Below are positions 3,863 through 13,714 of a DNA stretch of 36,941 nucleotides, one piece after another. The translations under genes and the position numbers were made by a program. The DNA is from Rhodospirillales bacterium. Lineage in GTDB: Bacteria > Pseudomonadota > Alphaproteobacteria > Rhodospirillales > Magnetospirillaceae. Location of the stretch: contig JACMKT010000026.1 of assembly GCA_014380005.1 (NCBI GenBank), positions 1 through 36,941 on the forward strand. Direction: 5' to 3'. How positions within the stretch are numbered: position 1 is the first letter of the stretch; every line of letters starts with the position of its first letter. The notes under the pieces were generated by a model, which was given only the letters and a program-made list of their open reading frames with translations, had not been told where the DNA came from and did no database searches.

Positions 3863-4288
3863 TTAACCGGCCCGCGCAGCCCCGGTTTCGCCAGTCTTTT
3901 TTGGCATGCGGCAATTGGGTTGCTCGGGTCCCTCGAACTCGATCAGCTCGGGCCGCAACAGGCCGTGACGTAAACTGTGCCAGGGCAGGAACTCGCGCGC
4001 CGCCGCGGGCGTTTCCACCATCAGACCGTCGCCGCTAACCAGCAATATCTTGAAACTGCGGGTTTTTTCGCGGCCGATGCCCTTCAGCATCACCCCCTGG
4101 GCCGGCTGGAAAACCGCTGCCAGCCGCACCACCTTGGCCGGGCTGACGGTGTGCGGGGTAAAGATGTCCTGCAATGGCACCGGGCTGATGGTCCCTTCCT
4201 CGCAATCAACCCGCACCAAGCCGGTGGCGCCGAAATCACTGCGCCGATAGCCGTAACATTGGGTAAGGATATCCTTCAAAGTGGTCAT
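3863..4288 (-). CDS. Hypothetical protein, 141 aa
   Basis: I do not recognise a family. The start at 4288 is chosen because GGAGGT precedes it by 6 bases; the frame is open further upstream but without a comparable site. The product (MTTLKDILTQCYGYRRSDFG...) is soluble-looking, with no signal peptide or membrane segment. It has a hydrophobic, beta-rich middle (KVVRLAAVFQPAQGVMLKG, SFKILLVSGDGLMVETP) and a short basic C-terminal tail. Cysteines near the start (C10 and one in RVDCEEG) are not in a recognised metal motif. It is divergent from the GDSL hydrolase gene and lies upstream of tRNA-Pro on the same strand. Confidence 0.6.
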   Translation of the reverse strand: MTTLKDILTQCYGYRRSDFGATGLVRVDCEEGTISPVPLQDIFTPHTVSPAKVVRLAAVFQPAQGVMLKGIGREKTRSFKILLVSGDGLMVETPAAAREFLPWHSLRHGLLRPELIEFEGPEQPNCRMPKKTGETGAARAG

Positions 4289-4399
4289 GCGCGCACCTCC
4301 GCTGGCCCTTTGCTCATGTTGTGCGACACGGCGGCGGCTGCGAGGGAACGCCCTGGGATATTTGTTGCCACCGCAATCGCCCTGAAGCAGCATGCCCGC

Positions 4400-4990
4400 A
4401 TGCGCATCTGCTTCCTGGGCGACAGCTTCATCAATGGCACCGGCGATCCCCATTGCCTGGGATGGGTCGGGCGAGTCTCGGCCCAGGCACGGGCCAGCGG
4501 CTGCGACGTCACCTGCTATAATCTGGGCATCCGCCGCAACACCAGCCAGGACATCGCCGCCCGCTGGCAGGCCGAGGCGGCATTACGCCTGCCGCCGGAA
4601 ATCGCCGGGATGCTGGTGTTCTCGTTCGGCGTCAATGATTGCTGCGATGAGGACGGGTGCCGCCGTGTCGCCCCCGAGGCCAGCGTGGCAACCACCCGCA
4701 GCATCCTGTCCGAAGCCGTCCGCCACCGACCCACCCTGATGGTAGGGCCGCCACCCATCGCCGCGCCCGACATCAATCACCGCATCGCCGCTTTGTCGCA
4801 GGCTTTGTCCAATGTGTGCCGGGACATGGGCGTGCCGTTCCTGGACGCCTTCACGCCATTATCCGCCAATCCCGTATGGATGCACGAAACCGACACCGGT
4901 GACGGCGCCCATCCGGGTGCCGGCGGTTATGACGCCTTGACCGCGCTGGTGTCCGCATGGCCCGATTGGCGCCGCGCCGTCTCGGCCTGA
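4400..4990 (+). CDS. SGNH/GDSL-family hydrolase
   Basis: A 196-residue single-domain esterase/lipase of the SGNH fold. The nucleophile block FLGDSF has Ser at residue 9. The Asn block is FGVND at residues 76-80, and the catalytic Asp-His pair lies in DGAHPG (D168, H171). The oxyanion-hole glycine block is near NLGIRRNTS (41-49). There is no signal peptide, so it is probably cytoplasmic. The ATG at 4400 starts directly at the first beta strand, as usual in short GDSL proteins; no strong ribosome binding site is visible. Its 3' end overlaps the convergent amidohydrolase gene by 64 bases. The natural substrate cannot be told from sequence. Confidence 0.85.
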   Translation: MRICFLGDSFINGTGDPHCLGWVGRVSAQARASGCDVTCYNLGIRRNTSQDIAARWQAEAALRLPPEIAGMLVFSFGVNDCCDEDGCRRVAPEASVATTRSILSEAVRHRPTLMVGPPPIAAPDINHRIAALSQALSNVCRDMGVPFLDAFTPLSANPVWMHETDTGDGAHPGAGGYDALTALVSAWPDWRRAVSA

Positions 4991-5805
4991 CCAAAGCCGA
5001 ACAGACCAGCAGCCGTACTGCCCAGAACCCGCGACCGCATGGCCGCCGAGGGCAGCCAGCGCGTCAACGCCGCCAACGCCGTACGGGTATCGGCCACCTG
5101 TTCAAATTGGGTGTGCGGCCAATCACTGCCCCACAACAGGCGGCTGGGGCCAAACGCGTGCACCAATTCCACTGCCGCATGCTGGGCCAGCCGGTCACCG
5201 TCGGGGCCAAGCCGGTAACCGGCCGATAGCTTGACCCAGACCTGCTTGGTGATAGCCGCTGCCAGCAGGGTGGTGAAGCCGGGATCGTGGATGCCCAGCA
5301 GCGGGTTGGGGCGACCGAAATGGTCGATCACCACATTGCCCCCCGCCGCCAGCAAAGGCGGCAGCACACGCGGCAGCCGTGCCGCCTCGCATTGAACCTC
5401 GACCTGCCAACCGGCGGCGGCAATACGGTCAAGGTGCCGGGTCCACAAAGCGGAGGCGAAGTCGGGGTCGTCCTTGCCGATCAAATTGAGCCTGATCCCA
5501 ACGATGCCTTGGCCTGCCAGTTGGGCAATCTCTTCCACCGAAATGGCGGGATCGACCATGGCGATACCGCGCAGGCGTTCGGGCGCAACCTGCAAGACCG
5601 ACACCAGATAGGAATTATCGGTGCCGAGAAAGCTGGGCTGCACCAGCACGCCATGGGTCATGCCCGAAGCGTCGAGCATGCCCAAATATGCCGCGATACC
5701 CGCATCGTAACTGGGCGTGTACCGCCGCGTCCCGTCCAGGGCAAGGCCCTGGACGAAACAATGGGCGTGGCAATCCACACGCATGGGCATGCTGATTAGT
5801 TTCAC
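4927..5805 (-). CDS. Amidohydrolase-2 family protein (2-pyrone-4,6-dicarboxylate lactonase-like)
   Basis: A 292-residue TIM-barrel hydrolase of the amidohydrolase-2 family (PF04909 type). The metal-ligand motif DCHAH lies near the N-terminus (about residues 11-15), VIDHFGRP in the middle and LLWGSDWPHTQFE in the last third, all typical of the lactonase and decarboxylase members. It starts with GTG at 5805, overlapping the TGA stop of the MFS gene (GTGA), so it is translationally coupled to the transporter; ATG codons at 5790 and 5784 are alternatives. Together with the upstream GntR regulator it suggests uptake and ring or lactone hydrolysis of a small carboxylic acid. The substrate is inferred only in class. 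The C-terminus overlaps the GDSL gene. Confidence 0.85.
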   Translation of the reverse strand: MKLISMPMRVDCHAHCFVQGLALDGTRRYTPSYDAGIAAYLGMLDASGMTHGVLVQPSFLGTDNSYLVSVLQVAPERLRGIAMVDPAISVEEIAQLAGQGIVGIRLNLIGKDDPDFASALWTRHLDRIAAAGWQVEVQCEAARLPRVLPPLLAAGGNVVIDHFGRPNPLLGIHDPGFTTLLAAAITKQVWVKLSAGYRLGPDGDRLAQHAAVELVHAFGPSRLLWGSDWPHTQFEQVADTRTALAALTRWLPSAAMRSRVLGSTAAGLFGFGQAETARRQSGHADTSAVKAS

Positions 5806-7067
5806 GCCTCGGCCACCGTAGGGGCGGCAGCGGGCAAATCCTGCTGCAGCGCCTTGCCGCGGGTTTCGGGCAGCATCAGCACGGCGACCAAAACCAGCGA
5901 ATAGGCCAGTCCGGCATCCACACCGATGGCGGTGCCCAGGGACCAGGTGTTGCTCATATAGCCGATCAGCACCGGCAGGCCCGCCGACAGGATACGGCCG
6001 AAATTATAGCAGAAGCCCACGCCCGAGCCGCGCACACCCTCGGGATAAAGCTCGTTGAATAGGGCGCCCATGCTGGCGGGAATGCCGGCGGCGCAGAAGC
6101 CCAAGGGGAAGCCCAGGATCAGCATGGCGGTGGGGCCGATGGGCGCCAGCAAATAAGTAACCGTCAACACGATGCAGCCCGAGGCGAACAGCATGACCGT
6201 GCGGCGGCGCCCCAACCGGTCCAGCAATTGCCCCGCCGTCAGGCAGCCGATGCCGAAGGCGACAATGATGACGCCCATATAAGCGCCGGTGCCCATGACC
6301 GACAGGTGACGCTCGGTTTTCAGGAAAGTCGGCAACCACGTGAACAGGCCATAGAAGCCGCCATGGGCGCCAAAGCCGAACAGGCCGCCGATCAAGGTCA
6401 CGCGCAGGGTTTCGGGGCGGAAGATGCCGAACACCGCCTTGAAATAGCTGGTGCGCGGCTTGCTCTCGCCGCAGGCACGGACCGGCTCTTCGACCTTGCG
6501 GCGCACATAGATGATCAGCAGCGCCGGCAGCAAGCCGATGGCGAACATGACCCGCCACGCGTATTCCTGCGGCAGCATGCTGAAGGCAATGGTGTAAAGC
6601 AGCACGGCGCCGCCCCAGCCCACGGCCCAGCCGCTTTGCACGGCGCCCATGGCCTTGCCGCGATGTTCGGAGCGGATGACTTCGGCCATCAGCACCGCAC
6701 CGGCGGCCCATTCGGCGCCGAAGCCAAGGCCCTGCAACCCCTTAAGCACCATCAGCTGTTCGAAATTTTGGCAGAACGCCGCCAGGAAAGTGGCGGTGGC
6801 GAACCAGACGATGGAGATCTGCAGCGCCTTGACCCGCCCGATGCGGTCGGACAACGCACCGCCCAGCCAGCCGCCCAGCGCCGACGCCACCAGGGTGACG
6901 CCGCTGATCAGGCCGGCCTCGGTCTTGCTGACACCCCAGGTGGCAATCAATGCGGGAATGACCATGCTGAACATCTGAATGTCCAAGGCGTCCAGCGACC
7001 ACCCACCGAAACATGCCCAGAACGTGCGGCGCTCTCCCGGCGCCACCTGCCGATACCACGTGAACAT
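5802..7067 (-). CDS. MFS transporter, aromatic-acid/metabolite:H+ symporter type
   Basis: A 421-residue major facilitator with about 12 hydrophobic segments. Near the N-terminus is the segment WSLDALDIQMFSMVIPALIA, whose D-A-x-D pattern in TM1 is characteristic of the aromatic acid:H+ symporter group. The loop 2-3 motif GGWLGGALSDRIGRVK and the C-terminal half motif GQLLDRLGRRRT are the conserved MFS A-motifs. GGGAGA-like bases 6 upstream of the ATG support the start. The gene lies 79 bases after gntR and directly after an operator palindrome, and is coupled to the amidohydrolase. It probably imports the substrate of that enzyme. Confidence 0.9.
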   Translation of the reverse strand: MFTWYRQVAPGERRTFWACFGGWSLDALDIQMFSMVIPALIATWGVSKTEAGLISGVTLVASALGGWLGGALSDRIGRVKALQISIVWFATATFLAAFCQNFEQLMVLKGLQGLGFGAEWAAGAVLMAEVIRSEHRGKAMGAVQSGWAVGWGGAVLLYTIAFSMLPQEYAWRVMFAIGLLPALLIIYVRRKVEEPVRACGESKPRTSYFKAVFGIFRPETLRVTLIGGLFGFGAHGGFYGLFTWLPTFLKTERHLSVMGTGAYMGVIIVAFGIGCLTAGQLLDRLGRRRTVMLFASGCIVLTVTYLLAPIGPTAMLILGFPLGFCAAGIPASMGALFNELYPEGVRGSGVGFCYNFGRILSAGLPVLIGYMSNTWSLGTAIGVDAGLAYSLVLVAVLMLPETRGKALQQDLPAAAPTVAEA

Positions 7068-7088
7068 TGTCGTCTCCCTGGAGTTTTC

Positions 7089-7106
7089 TAGTCCTCTATA
7101 TGACTA
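7089..7106. promoter_or_regulatory. Putative GntR operator upstream of the MFS gene
   Basis: TAGTCCTCTATATGACTA: TAGTC and GACTA are inverted around a centre of 8 bases. The inner sequence AGTCCTCTANATGAC is repeated at 7880-7894 in front of the regulator gene. It lies 22 bases before the MFS start codon, where a bound repressor would block transcription or translation. Confidence 0.65.
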
Positions 7107-7146
7107 AAAAACCAGAAAGCACTTATCGCGTCAATGTAGTTTCTCG

Positions 7147-7869
7147 TCAGTTTATATCAATATGGTAGCGGAATGTCGCCGCCGGTGCTCGCGATAGGCG
7201 CCATTCCAAGGGGTGGCGGTCATAGCCGCGTGCAAGGCGTTCGATCACCACCACGGGCTCCCCCGGCTTCAATCCCAGCAACTGCGCGTGTTCCGCCCCC
7301 ACCGCTTCCACAGTCAAGGTCTCCTGCGCCGAGGCGATGGACTGGCCGCACAGCCGCTCGTAAGTGGGGTAAAGCAGATCGCCCATATCGTCCAAGCCGA
7401 CGGTGAAAATGGGGGCGAAGCGCACCTTGGGCAGCCAGATTTCCTCGCCCATGACGATGTGCCCGTCAACCAGCCGCAGCCGGACCAGCCGGATGACCTC
7501 GGCGCCTTGGGCAAGGCTCAAATTCCGGGCCACGTCGGGCGGTGCCGCCATCACATCACGCTGGAGGATACGGCTTTGCGGCACGGTGGCTTGGTCGCCG
7601 CCATGATGGCGCAGGAAGCGCAGCAGGGAATTGTCGAAGCTGGGGCGGCGTACGAAAGTACCGCGCCCCTGCGACCGCTCTACCAGCCCATCGGCCACCA
7701 GGACATCGATGGCGCGGCGCACCGTCCCCAAGGCGACCTTATGAATCGCCGCCAGTTCGGATTCCGACGGAATGGCGTCGCCGGGGCCCCAGACATTGGC
7801 GGCAATCTCGGCGGCAATCTGGTCGCGCAGGCGCTGATAGCGGGGCAAGCGGTCGTCGATGGTGTTCAT
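7147..7869 (-). CDS. GntR-family transcriptional regulator, HutC subfamily
   Basis: A 240-residue regulator. Residues 10-75 form the GntR winged helix (PRYQRLRDQIAAEI...IPSESELAAIHKV...GTVRRAIDVLVADGLVERSQGRGTFV). Residues about 90-235 form a UTRA ligand-binding domain of HutC type (EVIRLVRLRLVDGHIVMGEEIWLP...HPLEWRLSRAPAATFRYHIDI). HutC-type proteins usually repress a neighbouring catabolic operon and are released by a pathway metabolite. Two near-identical palindromes, one in front of this gene and one in front of the MFS gene, support repression of both. The operator overlaps the only GAGGA sequence ahead of the start, so autoregulation is likely. The effector is unknown. Confidence 0.92.
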   Translation of the reverse strand: MNTIDDRLPRYQRLRDQIAAEIAANVWGPGDAIPSESELAAIHKVALGTVRRAIDVLVADGLVERSQGRGTFVRRPSFDNSLLRFLRHHGGDQATVPQSRILQRDVMAAPPDVARNLSLAQGAEVIRLVRLRLVDGHIVMGEEIWLPKVRFAPIFTVGLDDMGDLLYPTYERLCGQSIASAQETLTVEAVGAEHAQLLGLKPGEPVVVIERLARGYDRHPLEWRLSRAPAATFRYHIDIN

Positions 7870-7879
7870 GTGTATGCGC

Positions 7880-7894
7880 AGTCCTCTAGATGAC
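7880..7894. promoter_or_regulatory. Putative autoregulatory operator of the GntR gene
   Basis: AGTCCTCTAGATGAC is a near-perfect palindrome (GTC-TCTAGA-GAC) that matches the site at 7089-7106 in 14 of 15 bases. It lies 11 bases before the regulator start codon and overlaps its presumed ribosome binding region. Confidence 0.65.
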
Positions 7895-7986
7895 CCATCT
7901 AAAGGGTGGCGGGCGGTGGATTGTCAAGGGTTGGCGCTGGTTATTGGGCAGAGGCGGCGGCGGATTGGGCCGCGCCCCTTAAACCT

Positions 7987-9999
7987 TCAGCCAACATCTT
8001 CGGCATAAGCCAGATCGTAAATCTGATGATGGCGGGGCACGATGAAGTCCATGGCTTGGTAATAGAACGTCGTATCGCCCTCATGGTCATATTCACGCTT
8101 GAACGAGGCGATCTTGCCAAGCGCCAAGTCCGAGGCCTGGAACAGGATGCGGCGCGGCGCGCTCAACGGTGCGGGCAGGCCTTCATACTTGTCGCGCCGC
8201 CAGGCCAGGAAGTCGTGGGTGACCGTCAGCGGTTCGGGCGCCACCGCCCCCCGCAGATCGATCCGCTCACGCTCCGCCAAATCCAACGCCTCGCGCAGCA
8301 AGGCTTCGTGGCCAACAACGGTGGGCTCGTTCAGCAACAATCCTTCGAGGGTCTGCCGCACCCAGCTCAGTTCCTGGTAAATCAGCCGGGCACCGAAGGC
8401 GATGTTGATGCGGGTGGGGTCGGCAATGGTCCGGCCGCTGGCCTCGTACTGGGCCTTCACATGGTCGAACAGGGACTGGCGATCGGGGAACAACTCGCCC
8501 TCCACGGCCGCATGGAAGTCGGACAGGAAGCTGCGATAGCCGGGATTGTCCGATGCGCCGCCGGTGACGAAGCGGTCGAAGACGGTGGCTAAGTCGCAAT
8601 TCAGGCCGCGCAGCACCTGGAACAGCGGCTTGAAGAAGTGCAGCGAAAACACCGTATAGAACATCAGGTTCAAGCCACGCACGGCGATAAAGTCCTCGTA
8701 CGAGAAGGTGTCGGTGGCGACCACCACTTCTTCGTGCTCCAGGACGAATTCGTCGCCCACATGGCCGTAATTGGTGCCAAGCAGACGGAAGCCGGTCTTC
8801 AAACCGTACTTCTCGCGCACACCCGGGCGGTTCAGTTCGATGCCGTCCATGATGAACAGGTTGTGGCACTGCACCGTATCGAAGCGGCGGGCCACCGACC
8901 GGTTGAGCAGGTCGACAAACGAATGACGCGTCTCGTAGGGCAAGCCGAAGATCAGTTCGGTGGTGGTGCCGATGTCCCGCTCCTTCGCCCAATCGATGGC
9001 CGCGACAATTTCAGCCTCGCTGACGTTCTTGCGGTTGATGGCCTTCAGGGTCTCGGGGTTCTCGGTCTGCAGGGCGAGAGCCAAGCCCAACTGATTGTAA
9101 TCGCCCAGGGTCTCGATCACGGCTTTCGACGTGTCGGTGAAGCGCTTGTCGTTATAGAAGAACAGGGATTTCGGGTAGCCGATCCGTTCGCCGCAATCGC
9201 GGATGTGCTCGGCCACTTCCACGTCGCGCGGCAGGATGCCGAAATTCTCGTCGGCCAGGAACAGCACCTGATGGTCTTGGCCCTTATATGCGCGGGCCAC
9301 ATAGGAAAGTTCCTCTTTCACCTGATCCATGGGGAAGGCGCGGATCTTGCCCCGATTCTTGCCCGAGGTGCAGAACGCGCAGGTGTAGGGACACAGCCGC
9401 GAGGTCTGCACCAAGGGCTGGAATTCGCTGGTCAGGAACGGGGCCAGCACGCCCGACAGATACGGCGAACCAAGCGTCGTCAGGTCAAGGGTAAGGCCGA
9501 CCGGGGCGCCGGACTGCAACGTCCCGTCAGCCTGGAACACCACTCCGTCGATGGGCTTATGCTTCAATGCGGCGCGGTCGGCCAGGACCTGAGCGACGAT
9601 ATTCCACAGGCCCAACTCGCCTTCATTGACCACCAGGAAATCGGCGTCGGGCAGAGTGGCGAACAAACGCGCCTGCTCACCCACATCCGTATCAATGCTG
9701 GGGCCGCCATAGACGATGATCACATCAGAGTACAGGTTGCGGATATAGCGCGCCGCCTGACGGCCAATATCCGTATTCCAGTAATACAACGAGAACGCAA
9801 CGATGTCGGGCTTGACCGCAACGGCGTCCTGGTAAAGCTGCTCGACGCTTTTATACAGCTTCAGCTCGACGTCATTGCCGGCTTGCTGCTTCACATACTG
9901 CGCCAGAAACCCAATATTGAGCGGCGTATACCGCGTGGCGGCCGTAAAAACATTCGTGTAGCACAAATCGGCCAGCAGGATACGAAGGGGACGAGGCAC
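7987..9999 (-). CDS. Radical SAM protein with B12-binding-like N-terminal domain
   Basis: A 670-residue protein. Residues 1-165 look like a Rossmann-type cobalamin-binding domain (LRILLADLCYTN..., PDIVAFSLYYWNT, VIIVYGGPSIDTD, FLVVNEGEL), but the DxHxxG motif for base-off cobalamin is not seen. The radical SAM core begins at CPYTCAFC (C203, C207, C210), which ligates the 4Fe-4S cluster; LFLADENFGI and TTELIFGLPYET are typical downstream strands. About 250 residues at the C-terminus match nothing I know. This architecture is common in class B enzymes that modify lipids, antibiotics or peptides; the substrate here is unknown. The gene stands alone behind its own promoter and a GC hairpin in its leader. 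Confidence 0.85.
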   Translation of the reverse strand: MPRPLRILLADLCYTNVFTAATRYTPLNIGFLAQYVKQQAGNDVELKLYKSVEQLYQDAVAVKPDIVAFSLYYWNTDIGRQAARYIRNLYSDVIIVYGGPSIDTDVGEQARLFATLPDADFLVVNEGELGLWNIVAQVLADRAALKHKPIDGVVFQADGTLQSGAPVGLTLDLTTLGSPYLSGVLAPFLTSEFQPLVQTSRLCPYTCAFCTSGKNRGKIRAFPMDQVKEELSYVARAYKGQDHQVLFLADENFGILPRDVEVAEHIRDCGERIGYPKSLFFYNDKRFTDTSKAVIETLGDYNQLGLALALQTENPETLKAINRKNVSEAEIVAAIDWAKERDIGTTTELIFGLPYETRHSFVDLLNRSVARRFDTVQCHNLFIMDGIELNRPGVREKYGLKTGFRLLGTNYGHVGDEFVLEHEEVVVATDTFSYEDFIAVRGLNLMFYTVFSLHFFKPLFQVLRGLNCDLATVFDRFVTGGASDNPGYRSFLSDFHAAVEGELFPDRQSLFDHVKAQYEASGRTIADPTRINIAFGARLIYQELSWVRQTLEGLLLNEPTVVGHEALLREALDLAERERIDLRGAVAPEPLTVTHDFLAWRRDKYEGLPAPLSAPRRILFQASDLALGKIASFKREYDHEGDTTFYYQAMDFIVPRHHQIYDLAYAEDVG

Positions 10000-10180: not shown

Positions 10181-10291
10181 GAAAAACCCCCGCCAGTTTC
10201 CTGACGGGGGTTTCCCGAACTTGGTCCGCCTTGGGACTTGCGCCCCAAGGGTTCCCCGATACTCGGATTAGACCGAGTAGTACATCTGGGA
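10181..10291 (-). repeat. Second copy of the glnA 3' end, 3' UTR and terminator
   Basis: This segment matches the end of glnA at 12124-12267. It shares CCAGATGTACTA followed by two synonymous codons, the GTC-TAA end, GGAACCCTTGG in the UTR and the terminator hairpin. It therefore encodes the last residues QMYYSV and the stop of glutamine synthetase without the rest of the gene. The UTR between core and terminator differs from the glnA copy and has its own hairpin (CCTTGGG...CCCAAGG). It is best explained as the original glnA end displaced by an insertion. Confidence 0.75.
10187..10210 (-). terminator. Rho-independent terminator (displaced glnA terminator)
   Basis: On the minus strand a hairpin CCCCCGTCAG-GAAA-CTGGCGGGGG is followed by TTTTT. 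A T-G pair in the stem is a wobble only in the minus-strand RNA, which fixes the orientation. The same terminator recurs at 12131-12154. Confidence 0.85.
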
Positions 10292-10630
10292 CGGACGCTG
10301 AGCGAGGCCAAAGCCAGTGATGGCAAGGGCTTCAGCGCCACTGTGAACGGGCCGTGACCCACACTGCTGCACACGGCTGCTACACACCTGGAGTACGTGA
10401 AGTCGGTGAAGCACGAGCGGCTGTGGCCGGAACTGACCGCCGATGCCGAAGGTGGCCATCGCCTCGGCGGCGTTCACGCCCAGCAGTTCCACCAGCGGGG
10501 TGTTAACGCCCAGGCGGGCGGCCGATGGCACATAGACGGTGCGGCCGCCGCGCTGCTTGGACAGCTCCAGCGCCTTGGCCTCACCGATCACAGCAACCAG
10601 TTCGGTGTAGCTGACAGATTGCTCAGCCAT
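10268..10630 (-). pseudogene. Truncated Mor-like phage transcription activator ending in glnA codons
   Basis: The start at 10630 has AGAGGTG 5 bases upstream. The first 65 residues or so (MAEQSVSYTELVAVIGEA...LELSKQRGGRTVYVPSAARLG...LVELLGVNAAEAM) resemble the N-terminal part of the Mor/C activator family of Mu-like phages, with the IGE...GG..VYVP pattern. After about residue 70 the sequence stops looking like a protein family, and the expected DNA-binding helix-turn-helix is missing. The frame then runs, in register, into the displaced glnA end and finishes QMYYSV-stop. It is thus a chimera of phage gene and glutamine synthetase tail, and is probably not functional. Family assignment is moderately sure. 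Confidence 0.5.
10364..10387. repeat. 24-base direct repeat, copy 1 (arm-site-like)
   Basis: Starts CTGCTGCACACGG and ends TGCTACACAC. It matches 12177-12200 in 21 of 24 bases and in the same orientation, and is itself built from two tandem CTGCTRCACA units. It lies about 90 bases inside the left end of the glnA-flanked interval. Confidence 0.6.
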
Positions 10631-10676
10631 GAAGCACCTCTTGCCCGGCAAGGGCACACGCCTCTAAGTTGTCGAG

Positions 10677-11345
10677 ATGGACAAGAAAATACTTCTCGTC
10701 GCCGCCGGTCTCTTCGGGCTCGCTATGCTGCTCCTCACCGAGCCAGCCGCAGTTTCCCTTGCCGCCTTCGGCAGGGCCGCCACCGCCGAGAGCTGGGCCG
10801 CATGGGTGCAGGCCGTCGGCAGCGTGGCGGCTATTCTTGCTACGCTTTACGTCCCCATGCGGGAACGCAGGCAGGCCAAGCTGGATGCGGAGAAGGTCGC
10901 GCTCATGGTCATCGCTACCGAGCTGCGCAACTGGCTGGAGCGTTGCTCCGAGGCCGTGAGCGAGACCATGACTTACGCCTTGTCCAATGGAGCGCGCGGG
11001 ACTCGTCACTCGACACTGGAGGTCTTTCCTTTCGAGGAGGATCTTGGGCAGATTGCGAAGCTTGACCACGCGCACGCGACGGCCCTCTTTGGCCTGATCC
11101 ATCGAAAGAACGACGCGAACGCAAGTGTCGAGAAAGCATCTAATTGGCTCGAAGAGTACGGCGTTATAGAAGAATTCTGCGGGTGTGCACCGGAAATCTA
11201 CATGCTCTCTTTCGAAATATACTCGGCATTCATTGCGGAATTGGGCTGGGCGCGCCGAATCGACGACGAAGTGCTTGCCGGCATGAGAGCGAGGGCCGAG
11301 AACTACGTGCGCAGACGCGAGGAGTTCAGTATGGCGAAGTTCTGA
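10677..11345 (+). CDS. Membrane protein of unknown function, 222 aa
   Basis: Two hydrophobic segments lie at residues 4-30 (KILLVAAGLFGLAMLLLTEP...) and about 38-60 (ESWAAWVQAVGSVAAILATLYVP), followed by a basic loop (MRERRQAKLDAEK) and a long soluble, helix-rich region rich in Trp, Glu and Tyr. The W..W.QA.GS..AI pattern in the second segment is common to many small uncharacterised membrane proteins in phages and islands. No enzymatic motif is visible. Base composition in the second half (11090-11250) is less GC-rich than in the flanking genes, consistent with foreign origin. It lies inside the glnA-flanked interval, divergent from the Mor-like remnant. The ribosome binding site is weak. Confidence 0.6.
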   Translation: MDKKILLVAAGLFGLAMLLLTEPAAVSLAAFGRAATAESWAAWVQAVGSVAAILATLYVPMRERRQAKLDAEKVALMVIATELRNWLERCSEAVSETMTYALSNGARGTRHSTLEVFPFEEDLGQIAKLDHAHATALFGLIHRKNDANASVEKASNWLEEYGVIEEFCGCAPEIYMLSFEIYSAFIAELGWARRIDDEVLAGMRARAENYVRRREEFSMAKF

Positions 11346-11462
11346 TCGCCGCTCAGCTGCACGGTCACACGGAACTAACACGGCTTGCTCCCTTCGCAAG
11401 GTCGTTGATACCGCACTTCGTGGTCGGCAATCCAGGCAGGCGCATAGGCGGAACGCCTCGAC

Positions 11463-12059
11463 ATGGGGGGCGGTGACACCGCCTACCTTGTCGATGGTCA
11501 TCACCGCCGCGAAGCCTACCTCAACGCCAAGGTCACCCAACCGATCCCGGTGACCTACTTCACCGGCTCGGTCGAAGAGGCGGTGCTGGAAGCGGGCCGG
11601 GCCAACAGCAAGGCCAAGCAGCCCATGACCAACACCGAACGCCAAGACTTCGCATGGCGTTTGGTCAGGCTGGGCAGCTATACCCGCAATCAGGTTGCCG
11701 AAGCGGCGGGGGTCTCGGTGCGGCAGGTCGCCACCATGCGGGAGGTGCTGAAGCAGTTGGGCGAGGACGCCTTTGAGTACGAAAGCTGGTGGAAGGCCCG
11801 TACCGTCGCATCTGGCAGGGAAAGTTCATCCTTCGACAGCGACGAGGAGCGGGAGGAATGGCTGGAGGCCTGGGACTCGGACCTTGCCAGCCGTATGCGC
11901 AAGGAGTTCACCGGCAAGCTGATCGCCAACCCGGAACTGGCCGCACGGGCGCTGAACATCTACTTCGGTCGCAAGCTGCCGGACCTGTTCAGCGAACTGC
12001 GCCAATACGTCTCGGAGGGCGACACGCAGGAACAGGCTGACGAGAACGACGACTTCTGA
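11463..12059 (+). pseudogene. ParB-like protein lacking the N-terminal part of its nuclease/CTPase domain
   Basis: The 198-residue product begins almost directly at YLVDGHHRREAYLNA, which corresponds to the GxHRxxA box of the ParB/sulfiredoxin fold; the first half of that domain, normally 40-60 residues upstream, is missing, and a TAG closes the frame just 16 bases before the ATG. It continues with a helix-turn-helix-like region (TRNQVAEAAGVSVRQVATMREVLK, about residues 75-98) and an acidic C-terminus. Such proteins occur in Mu-like phages and plasmids. The 5' truncation fits a deletion junction in 11346-11460. A shorter protein could still be made, but normal ParB activity is unlikely. Confidence 0.6.
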
Positions 12060-12130
12060 CCCTTCCCTGTGCAATCCCTACGGGGTGCATTTTGCACACC
12101 GCGATGTCCCTCCACCGACCCAAAGGAAAA

Positions 12131-12154
12131 CCCCCGCCAGTTTCCTGACGGGGG
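12131..12154 (-). terminator. Rho-independent terminator of glnA
   Basis: On the minus strand the same hairpin as at 10187-10210 (CCCCCGTCAG...CTGGCGGGGG) is followed by TTTTCCTTT. It lies about 90 bases after the glnA stop. Confidence 0.85.
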
Positions 12155-12176
12155 CTTCCAAGATCGGGTTCCTTGA

Positions 12177-12200
12177 CTGCTACACACGCCTGCTACACAG
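12177..12200. repeat. 24-base direct repeat, copy 2 (arm-site-like)
   Basis: Starts CTGCTACACACGC and ends TGCTACACAG, 21 of 24 bases identical to 10364-10387. It lies about 40 bases from the glnA stop, inside the right end of the glnA-flanked interval. Confidence 0.6.
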
Positions 12201-12245
12201 TCGTCGCCGGGTGTGGCGCAAAGCCAAGGGTTCCAGCCATTCCGA

Positions 12246-13658
12246 TTAGACGGAATAGTACATCTGGAACTCGACCGGATGCGGGGTGTGCTCGAAGCGG
12301 TAGACTTCTTCGTACTTCAGCTCGATGTAGGCCTCGACGAATTCCTTGGAGAACACGTCGCCCTTCAGCAGGAAGTCGTGATCGGCCTTCAGGCAATCGA
12401 GAGCCTCGCGCAGCGAACCGGCCACGGTCGGGACCTGCTTGAGCTCCTCGGGAGGAAGGTCATACAGGTTCTTGTCCATGGGCTCGCCGGGATGGATCTT
12501 GTTGGCGATACCGTCCAGGCCGGCCATCAGCATGGCGGAGAAGGCCAAATACGGGTTGGCACCCGGATCGGGGAAGCGGATCTCGACGCGCTTGGCCTTC
12601 GGGCTGGTCGCGTACGGGATACGGCAGGAAGCCGAACGGTTGCGGGCCGAGTAGGCCAGCAGCACCGGGGCTTCGAAGCCGGGGATCAGGCGCTTGTACG
12701 AGTTGGTGGTCGGGTTGGTGAAGGCGTTCAGCGCCTTGGCATGCTTGATGATGCCACCGATGTAGTACAGGCACATGTCCGACAGGTCGGCATAGCCCGA
12801 ACCAGCGAACAGGGACTTGCCGGCCTTCCAGATGGACTGGTGGACGTGCATGCCCGAGCCGTTGTCGCCATAGATGGGCTTCGGCATGAAAGTGGCGGAC
12901 TTGCCATAGGACGCGGCCACATTGTGGACCACGTACTTGTAGATCTGCATCCAGTCGGCGGCCTGAACCATGGTGCCGAACTTGCAGCCCAGCTCGTGCT
13001 GCGACGAGGCCACTTCGTGGTGATGCTTTTCGATGGGCAGGCCCATCTCACCCATGACGGTCAGCATCTCGGCGCGCATGTCGACCGAGGCATCCACCGG
13101 CGGAACCGGGAAGTAGCCGCCCTTGACGCCCGGGCGGTGGCCCAGATTGCCTTCGGCGAAGTCCTTGGCGGAGCTTTCCACGCCGTCTTCCGAGTTCAGT
13201 TCGTAGTAACCGACATTCATGCCGGTCTTGAACTTCACGTCGTCGAAGACGAAGAATTCGGCTTCCGGGCCGAAATAAGCGGTGTCGCCGGCGCCGGACT
13301 CGACCACATAGCGCTCGGCGCGCTTGGCGATGGCGCGGGGATCGCGGTCATACAGCTGGCCGGTGGCGGGCTCGACGATGTCGCAGAAGATGATCATCTG
13401 CGCCTGGGCGGCGAAGGGGTCCATGACGGCCGACGCGCAGTCGGGCTTCAAGATCATGTCGGACTGGTCGATGGACTTCCAGCCGGCGATCGACGAACCG
13501 TCGAACATCAGACCTTCGGTCAGCATGTCGGTATCGACCGAGCAGACATGCTGAGCGGTGTGCTGCCACTTGCCCTTGGGATCAGTGAAGCGGAAATCGA
13601 CGTACTTAACGTCGTGCTCCTTGATCATATCGAGGACTTTCTTGACGTCGTCGGCCAT
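12246..13658 (-). CDS. glnA: Glutamine synthetase, type I
   Basis: The 470-residue dodecameric type I enzyme makes glutamine from glutamate, ammonia and ATP in the cytoplasm. Visible signatures are FDGSSIAGW (residues 52-60), the metal/nucleotide strand [21 protein letters not shown] and [10 protein letters not shown]. The adenylylation site NLYDLP has Tyr399, so activity is probably controlled by GlnE, as in enteric bacteria. AGGAA precedes the ATG at 13658 by about 7 bases; the TTG two codons upstream is less likely. It follows glnB by 56 bases in the classic glnBA operon. The last codons are duplicated at 10268, and an insertion appears to have replaced its 3' end without changing the protein terminus. 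Confidence 0.98.
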
Positions 13659-13714
13659 GGTCAATTCCTGAATTGTTGGTTGGTAAGTAAATAGAAAAAC
13701 GCCCGGAAGGCGGC

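Follow-up and report, generated by a model that had tools for sequence, protein, structure and literature searches.

Islander-type genomic islands, which occupy tRNA and tmRNA genes, split their target and restore it, and a displaced fragment of the target marks the other end of the island (PMC4383910). A related arrangement is found at the 3′ end of glnA, the glutamine synthetase gene, in a stretch of 36,941 nucleotides (nt; hereafter the window) from contig C40 of genome G000, a member of the Rhodospirillales whose closest named relatives, judged by glnA, are Magnetospirillum. Window positions 10278–12267 are very probably the remnant of an integrative island that recombined within the last codons of glnA and supplied the gene with a new tail. 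The likeness to Islander-type islands lies in a target restored by island sequence and a displaced fragment at the other end; unlike them, the glnA island targets a protein gene, and the replacement would include a stop codon, an untranslated region (UTR) with presumed integrase sites, and a predicted terminator.

Among protein genes, dusA is a described integration target (PMC4482086). Integration there is likewise site-specific and in a housekeeping protein gene, but at the 5′ end. The genes icd and guaA are also protein-gene targets of islands or prophages, and relative to the islands of dusA, icd and guaA, the tails that appear to be kept after island loss are an added feature of the glnA islands. 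Phage-defence islands sit at integration hotspots; the glnA islands resemble these in being small, in carrying an integrase and exchangeable, predicted restriction or Lamassu cargo, and in their fixed position, and differ from them in the specific site and in a clade of integrases bearing DUF6538. That a glnA 3′ UTR can be a functional site is known from GlnZ, a small RNA derived from the glnA 3′ UTR of Enterobacteriaceae (PMC9731577), and here the UTR itself seems to be island-borne. No report of glnA as an integration target, nor any paper joining DUF6538 with an integrase, was found in the literature searched; a published catalogue of protein-gene targets may list glnA, and the gene is absent from the main text of the Integrase-On-Demand paper (PMC12884075). 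Gene-restoring integrase islands are a known kind; what appears new is the glnA target, a supplied terminator that comes with a UTR holding presumed integrase sites, and the retained tails.

On the minus strand of the window, glnA (12246–13664) ends in a TAA stop codon at 12246–12248, and its last codons contain a core block, CCAGATGTACTA (12256–12267, minus strand), which is present in identical form at a far position, 10278–10289, on the same strand. The last glnA codons recur at 10263–10289 with 3 mismatches in 27 positions (0 matches in 100 shuffles), accompanied by the stop, the UTR word GGAACCCTTGG and the terminator core; CCAAGGGTTCC is found twice in the whole window, at 10245–10255 and 12224–12234, and an identical 27-bp terminator core occurs at 10184–10210 and 12128–12154. 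All duplicated items share one orientation; measured from start to start, the codon copies lie 1,978 bp apart and the terminator copies 1,944 bp. An earlier note on this DNA, which had described glnA codons, UTR word and terminator as occurring twice in the same orientation about 1.97 kb apart, had placed all of them correctly.

Following the near core is the tail that we take to be island-supplied (12121–12255, minus strand), made up of the last residues, stop, UTR and terminator, the last of these a terminator-like hairpin with a T tract (12125–12157, minus strand) reading out of glnA. Following the far core is the displaced and probably original end of glnA (10181–10277, minus strand), with its own last residues, stop, UTR and terminator-like hairpin (10184–10213). 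Terminators were called by a rule of our own (hairpin, then T) and by folding, and both window copies have this form by either means. Similar terminators (86% over 35–37 bases) occur away from glnA, in contigs C127 and C13 of G000 and elsewhere in relatives, and terminator sequence alone is therefore weak evidence; terminator identity was dropped as proof of the event for this reason.

The interval between the two copies had been described in the earlier note as holding only phage-like remnants, and two such remnants are present, a truncated Mor-like late activator (10448–10612, minus strand; phrog_836, E 1.6e-8) and a ParB-like gene fragment (11463–12059, plus strand; phrog_1033, E 8e-10), these being the only PHROG matches among four window frames compared; the description omitted a repeat pair near each end and a scrap of integrase. 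The near arm-type pair, TGTGTAGCAG GC GTGTGTAGCAG in the sense of glnA, lies at 12176–12199 (minus strand), 50 nt past the stop, and the far pair lies on the integrase side at 10363–10386 (minus strand), 101 nt from the far core; the two pairs are 92% identical, with repeats of 9–10 nt each. The same pair as the far one adjoins the integrase start in G009, a genome of the same genus, and window 10260–10386 has 86% identity to the G009 sequence beside the start of its DUF6538 integrase. A search of five integrases against the whole window recovered a 24-codon scrap of such a gene (LEYVKSVKHERLWPELTADAEGGH; 10388–10459, plus strand), which agrees with the Magnetospirillum fulvum integrase at 19/24 residues (E 7e-8) and has the orientation seen in whole islands; as only this scrap is left, nearly the whole window integrase is gone. 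The remaining content is an open reading frame of 222 amino acids (10677–11345, plus strand), with a membrane-like N-terminus by our reading and no family found; neither this frame nor the Mor-like piece had a match in the eight island stretches searched, and a PADLOC scan of one window frame recognised no defence gene. A longer homologue of the ParB-like fragment (50% identity; 69.3% for the DNA) occupies the same place in an island of Roseospirillum parvum (G092), directly behind the terminator, as in the window.

A separate observation concerns a 3.8-kb contig of another genome (G068:C101, locus L154). It encodes a resolvase, and its ParB-like gene has 78% identity to the window fragment; the contig is perhaps a further member of the island family whose ends were not assembled.

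The flank of the far core also bears on whether the second copy is the decayed end of a full glnA duplicate, as its identical closing codons, stop and terminator would allow. Upstream of the 12-bp core, however, the far copy no longer resembles glnA and continues into the integrase-side arm of the island (10290–10387, minus strand), which matches G009 at 87% over 94 aligned bases. A decayed duplicate, which the earlier note had named as a finding that would count against its reading, is accordingly a most improbable origin.

Whole islands at the same place, which the earlier note had proposed seeking together with an integrase, are found in other genomes of the order. When the near UTR was used as query, 4 of 297 genomes gave a match, the window's own included and G092 and G009 among them, and in G092 a whole island follows glnA. 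An integrase search at E 1e-60, with only the best few candidates per genome scored, matched 6 of 317 genomes, and in 6/6 a copy of the glnA end lies beside the integrase start. The integrase combines an N-terminal DUF6538 domain with a tyrosine-recombinase domain, PF00589 (G009, G092). In four of the six genomes (G064, G092, G161 and G106) glnA is on the same contig, 5–12 kb from the integrase gene; in G009 the integrase start abuts the repeat pair, a glnA-end copy follows about 80 nt on, and the far end only is present; in G090 the integrase is broken and the near end is on another contig, which stops 0.4 kb on. Four whole islands of 6.7–13.9 kb thus lie between two glnA ends (core to core, 13.9 kb in G064, 6.9 kb in G092, 6.7 kb in G161 and 8.0 kb in G106), in hosts that include M. 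fulvum, R. parvum and Novispirillum itersonii.

Predicted restriction or Lamassu genes occur in three of the four whole islands, cargo having been assigned by family match on part of the islands' reading frames: G064 has HsdM, HsdS and an HsdR-like protein of a type I restriction-modification system, along with a GmrSD_N protein; G092 has a C5 methylase and an Eco29kI-type nuclease, making up a restriction-modification system of that type, along with Vsr; and G106 has LmuA and LmuB of Lamassu. The fourth, G161, has a resolvase, a DUF3102 protein and unknown genes, with no defence gene in the genes scanned. Outside these genomes, virus contigs yielded no match to a glnA-end pattern, an integrase scan of the same material gave 19 pattern matches with no relative and no match to the G009 integrase, the R. 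parvum integrase had no match in phage records at E 1e-30, and six plasmid records carry integrases of 28–34% identity.

Alternatively, the glnA end might simply have been copied by segmental duplication or template switching, the phage genes between the copies having arrived by chance; in favour of this, such terminators are frequent in these genomes and might recombine with one another. This explanation would have to accommodate four other two-ended islands, from three families, that have related ends and the same layout at glnA, and an integrase scrap in the right place and orientation, and we give it almost no credence. The integrase scrap, the shared ends and the whole islands instead support integration by a tyrosine recombinase at the glnA end, which the earlier note had suggested and which would be the event behind the duplication.

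The order of parts along glnA is the core in the last codons, the last residues with the stop, the UTR with its repeat pair, the terminator and the island body, then the integrase reading back towards glnA, the second repeat pair, the second core, and the displaced end with its own terminator. The block identical between near and far ends measures 12 bp in the window, 13 in G064, 13 in G092, 27 in G161 and 12 in G106, and begins at the same base in all five (the C before a Q, E or K codon); the protein ends in MYYS-V/A/S-stop at both ends of all five two-ended cases. These ends display the trait of gene-restoring islands, a direct repeat at both ends with one copy completing glnA. Since the shared block is identical at both ends, strand exchange most likely took place inside it, and the sequence beyond would then be the island's.

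The glnA stop codon also lies in the loop of a short palindrome (window 12241–12261 and 10263–10283) whose stem sequences differ between near and far copies, and stems of at least 5 pairs enclose the stop in 30 of the 114 glnA tails compared, the figure for control positions being 128 of 2,622 (4.9%). The palindrome was rejected as the recombinase core: near and far copies mostly pair internally yet differ from each other, and in four of the five cases the shared block ends before it, the G161 block including it.

The repeats are placed with some regularity. At the far ends the repeat starts 100–104 nt from the core ATG in 7/7, and on the near side 10 of the 114 glnA tails have a paired repeat located 49–51 nt beyond the stop, the 114 being the distinct tails collected and not a random sample. 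A rule admitting the pair or a single repeat takes in 11 of the 114, the control frequencies being 102/17,810 windows for the pair and 2/17,810 for the single repeat. From its position and recurrence the paired repeat is probably an integrase arm-binding site. Tails with repeats are also longer: the stop-to-terminator distance is 61–99 nt in 10 of 12 repeat-bearing tails (in the other two a nearer, probably spurious hairpin was called) and 27–66 nt in 16 of 17 repeat-free tails with a glnA identity of at least 84%, the seventeenth giving no call.

Two repeat types are present, and they appear to track the N-terminal domain of the integrase. The catalytic part of the G106 integrase is about equidistant from all others (55–57%), and its residues 1–60 have 52–55% identity to the other GTGGACCAG-type proteins against 38–40% otherwise; among the five sequences compared only G106 is informative, because the other same-type pairs are also closest in the catalytic part. 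Apart from glnA, a virus contig (IMGVR_UViG_2855927618_000004, locus L167, positions 840–1017) has the same TGTGTAGCAG repeat pair at an integrase start, adjoining what we read as the 3′ part of a tRNA (ARAGORN called none); it would combine the same presumed arm sites with another target.

In a further explanation, repeats, UTR and terminator are an old feature of the host glnA and the islands copied the host end into attP, so that nothing would have been replaced in kind. Genus g7 has the long repeat-bearing tail in several island-free genomes, as vertical inheritance would give. Against this stand the presence of the same repeat at its fixed distance from the far core, beside the integrase start and with no glnA UTR there; the identity of repeat type at both ends of each two-ended case; the 103 of 114 glnA tails outside the repeat rule; the association of repeat type with the integrase N-terminus (in five sequences, one informative); and the virus contig that has these repeats at its integrase start beside another target. 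We consider an ancestral host tail unlikely, though less so than the other two alternatives.

Under island integration, a tyrosine integrase would have recombined a 12–13 bp core inside the last glnA codons, so that glnA would now read into island-brought last residues, stop, UTR and predicted terminator, and the original glnA end would now lie beyond the island, displaced by it. The N-terminal DUF6538 domain would bind the repeats, making the new glnA UTR the attL arm, and the supplied hairpin would stop glnA transcription before the island. The island body would since have decayed to the Mor-like piece, the frame of no assigned family and the ParB-like fragment.

The origin of the near tail is addressed by comparison across families. 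Between the window and R. parvum, which belongs to another family, the near non-coding tail is 81.7% identical over 197 aligned bases and the glnA coding sequence 78.5%; a free-standing host UTR should not outdo glnA in conservation, and the near tail accordingly looks like the island's. This agrees with the proposal in the earlier note that the replacement includes the UTR and the terminator, the hairpin being a predicted terminator. Island-free relatives (genera g1 and g7) have glnA followed directly by a short UTR and terminator; the empty-site comparison that had been proposed thus yields relatives with short, direct tails and no case of glnA joined to the 10181–10267 sequence.

Two further loci have near tails related to the window's with other contents behind. 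Contig C180, in the same bin as the window (L111, 1–17059), has a glnA 96% identical over 478 nt, other matches standing at 82–87%, and is from a second, related strain in that bin. Behind its tail are DUF2971 and HSDR_N proteins; behind that of G012, a relative nearer than R. parvum, is an HSDR_N protein. The two HSDR_N proteins share 93% identity over 368 residues, one in the same and one in the opposite orientation to glnA, and a reading of the two loci as islands of different content was dropped on this account. By our reading, a terminator like that of the empty relatives follows the insert in G012, and we take both inserts for further islands at this site, or for a single island that was rearranged. 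As to neighbouring genes, tRNA-Pro in C180 is followed by a cassette with an ABC transporter/C39 peptidase and HlyD. In the window, the displaced glnA end is separated from a GDSL-type gene (3977–4990) by a block at 4927–9999 that contains a radical SAM gene and genes that we read as GntR-like, MFS-like and amidohydrolase-like; in G010 and C180 a GDSL-type gene adjoins glnA or its island, and the block would therefore be a further insertion or lineage-specific.

Long repeat-bearing tails with no island follow glnA in eight genomes (G003, G004, G034, G063, G069, G071, G072 and G076), six of them from one genus, whose tails may stem from one old inherited event. No integrase match and no second glnA end were found in 37.7–39.5 kb downstream (4.1 kb in G071, where one ATGTATTAC was seen without the rest of the glnA end). 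The strict pair rule applies to G003, G069, G071 and G076, a laxer pair rule to G063 and the single-repeat rule to G034; G072 has one repeat by reading, and the G004 repeat is degenerate (3 mismatches). The search that yielded most of these genomes matched 10 of 317, G260 in its codons only and with no repeat. From these cases the tail can probably outlast the island and serve as the host's own glnA 3′ end. In addition, an older repeat, of the other type, is present in the displaced ends of G106 (0 mismatches) and G090 (1 mismatch), a quality reached by 1 of 15,886 control windows; the displaced end of G064 has a weaker candidate with 3 mismatches, a quality reached by 88 of the 15,886; none was found in the displaced ends of the window, G009, G092 and G161, the best window candidate having 6 mismatches, at chance level. 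Replacement has probably been repeated in some genomes (G106 and G090), and we make no such claim for the window.

Several observations weigh against the island interpretation of the window, or limit its reach. The window is without a working integrase; a terminator scan program listed neither of its hairpins; and the GGAACCCTTGG word is found on either side of the presumed crossover. In seven displaced ends the stop-to-hairpin distance is 31–80 nt (58 in the window), longer than in most empty tails. Between the window and the nearer G012, UTR and terminator are 87.0% identical and glnA 88.4%, an order expected if no transfer took place between these two, so that the cross-family comparison is the only one that would speak for tail transfer. 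The species of the window itself yielded no empty site, and a second glnA end is absent from 7.3 kb of G012 and 16.5 kb of C180. In C180 the bases just past the stop resemble the far copy and the rest resembles the near copy, a mixed tail that goes beyond what one crossover within the codons would produce; later recombination between strains may be its cause. In a wider sample of the class, 1 of 385 genomes matched (G615), with an integrase relative of 40–49% identity that has no repeats and, over the 18 kb examined, no association with glnA, and the glnA rule accordingly holds for the near integrase clade only.

The glnA ends of these bacteria suggest that mobile elements replace the regulatory tail of a core metabolic gene, and not just its codons, with whole, decayed and tail-only stages seen side by side and a clade of DUF6538 integrases tied to one site and two repeat types. 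The glnA end also offers a site at which defence genes of magnetic and purple bacteria might be sought, and it poses the testable question of whether the element's terminator spares the host gene, shields the island, or both. More broadly, and with about even confidence, the Rhodospirillales glnA 3′ end may act as a turnstile, in which successive islands loaded with exchangeable defence genes each install a stop-codon end, UTR and terminator of their own and displace the previous end outward, and in which the attL arm of a dead island would stay as the host's permanent glnA 3′ UTR, giving this central nitrogen gene a tail derived from a mobile element, and may carry island-encoded control of the glnA mRNA.

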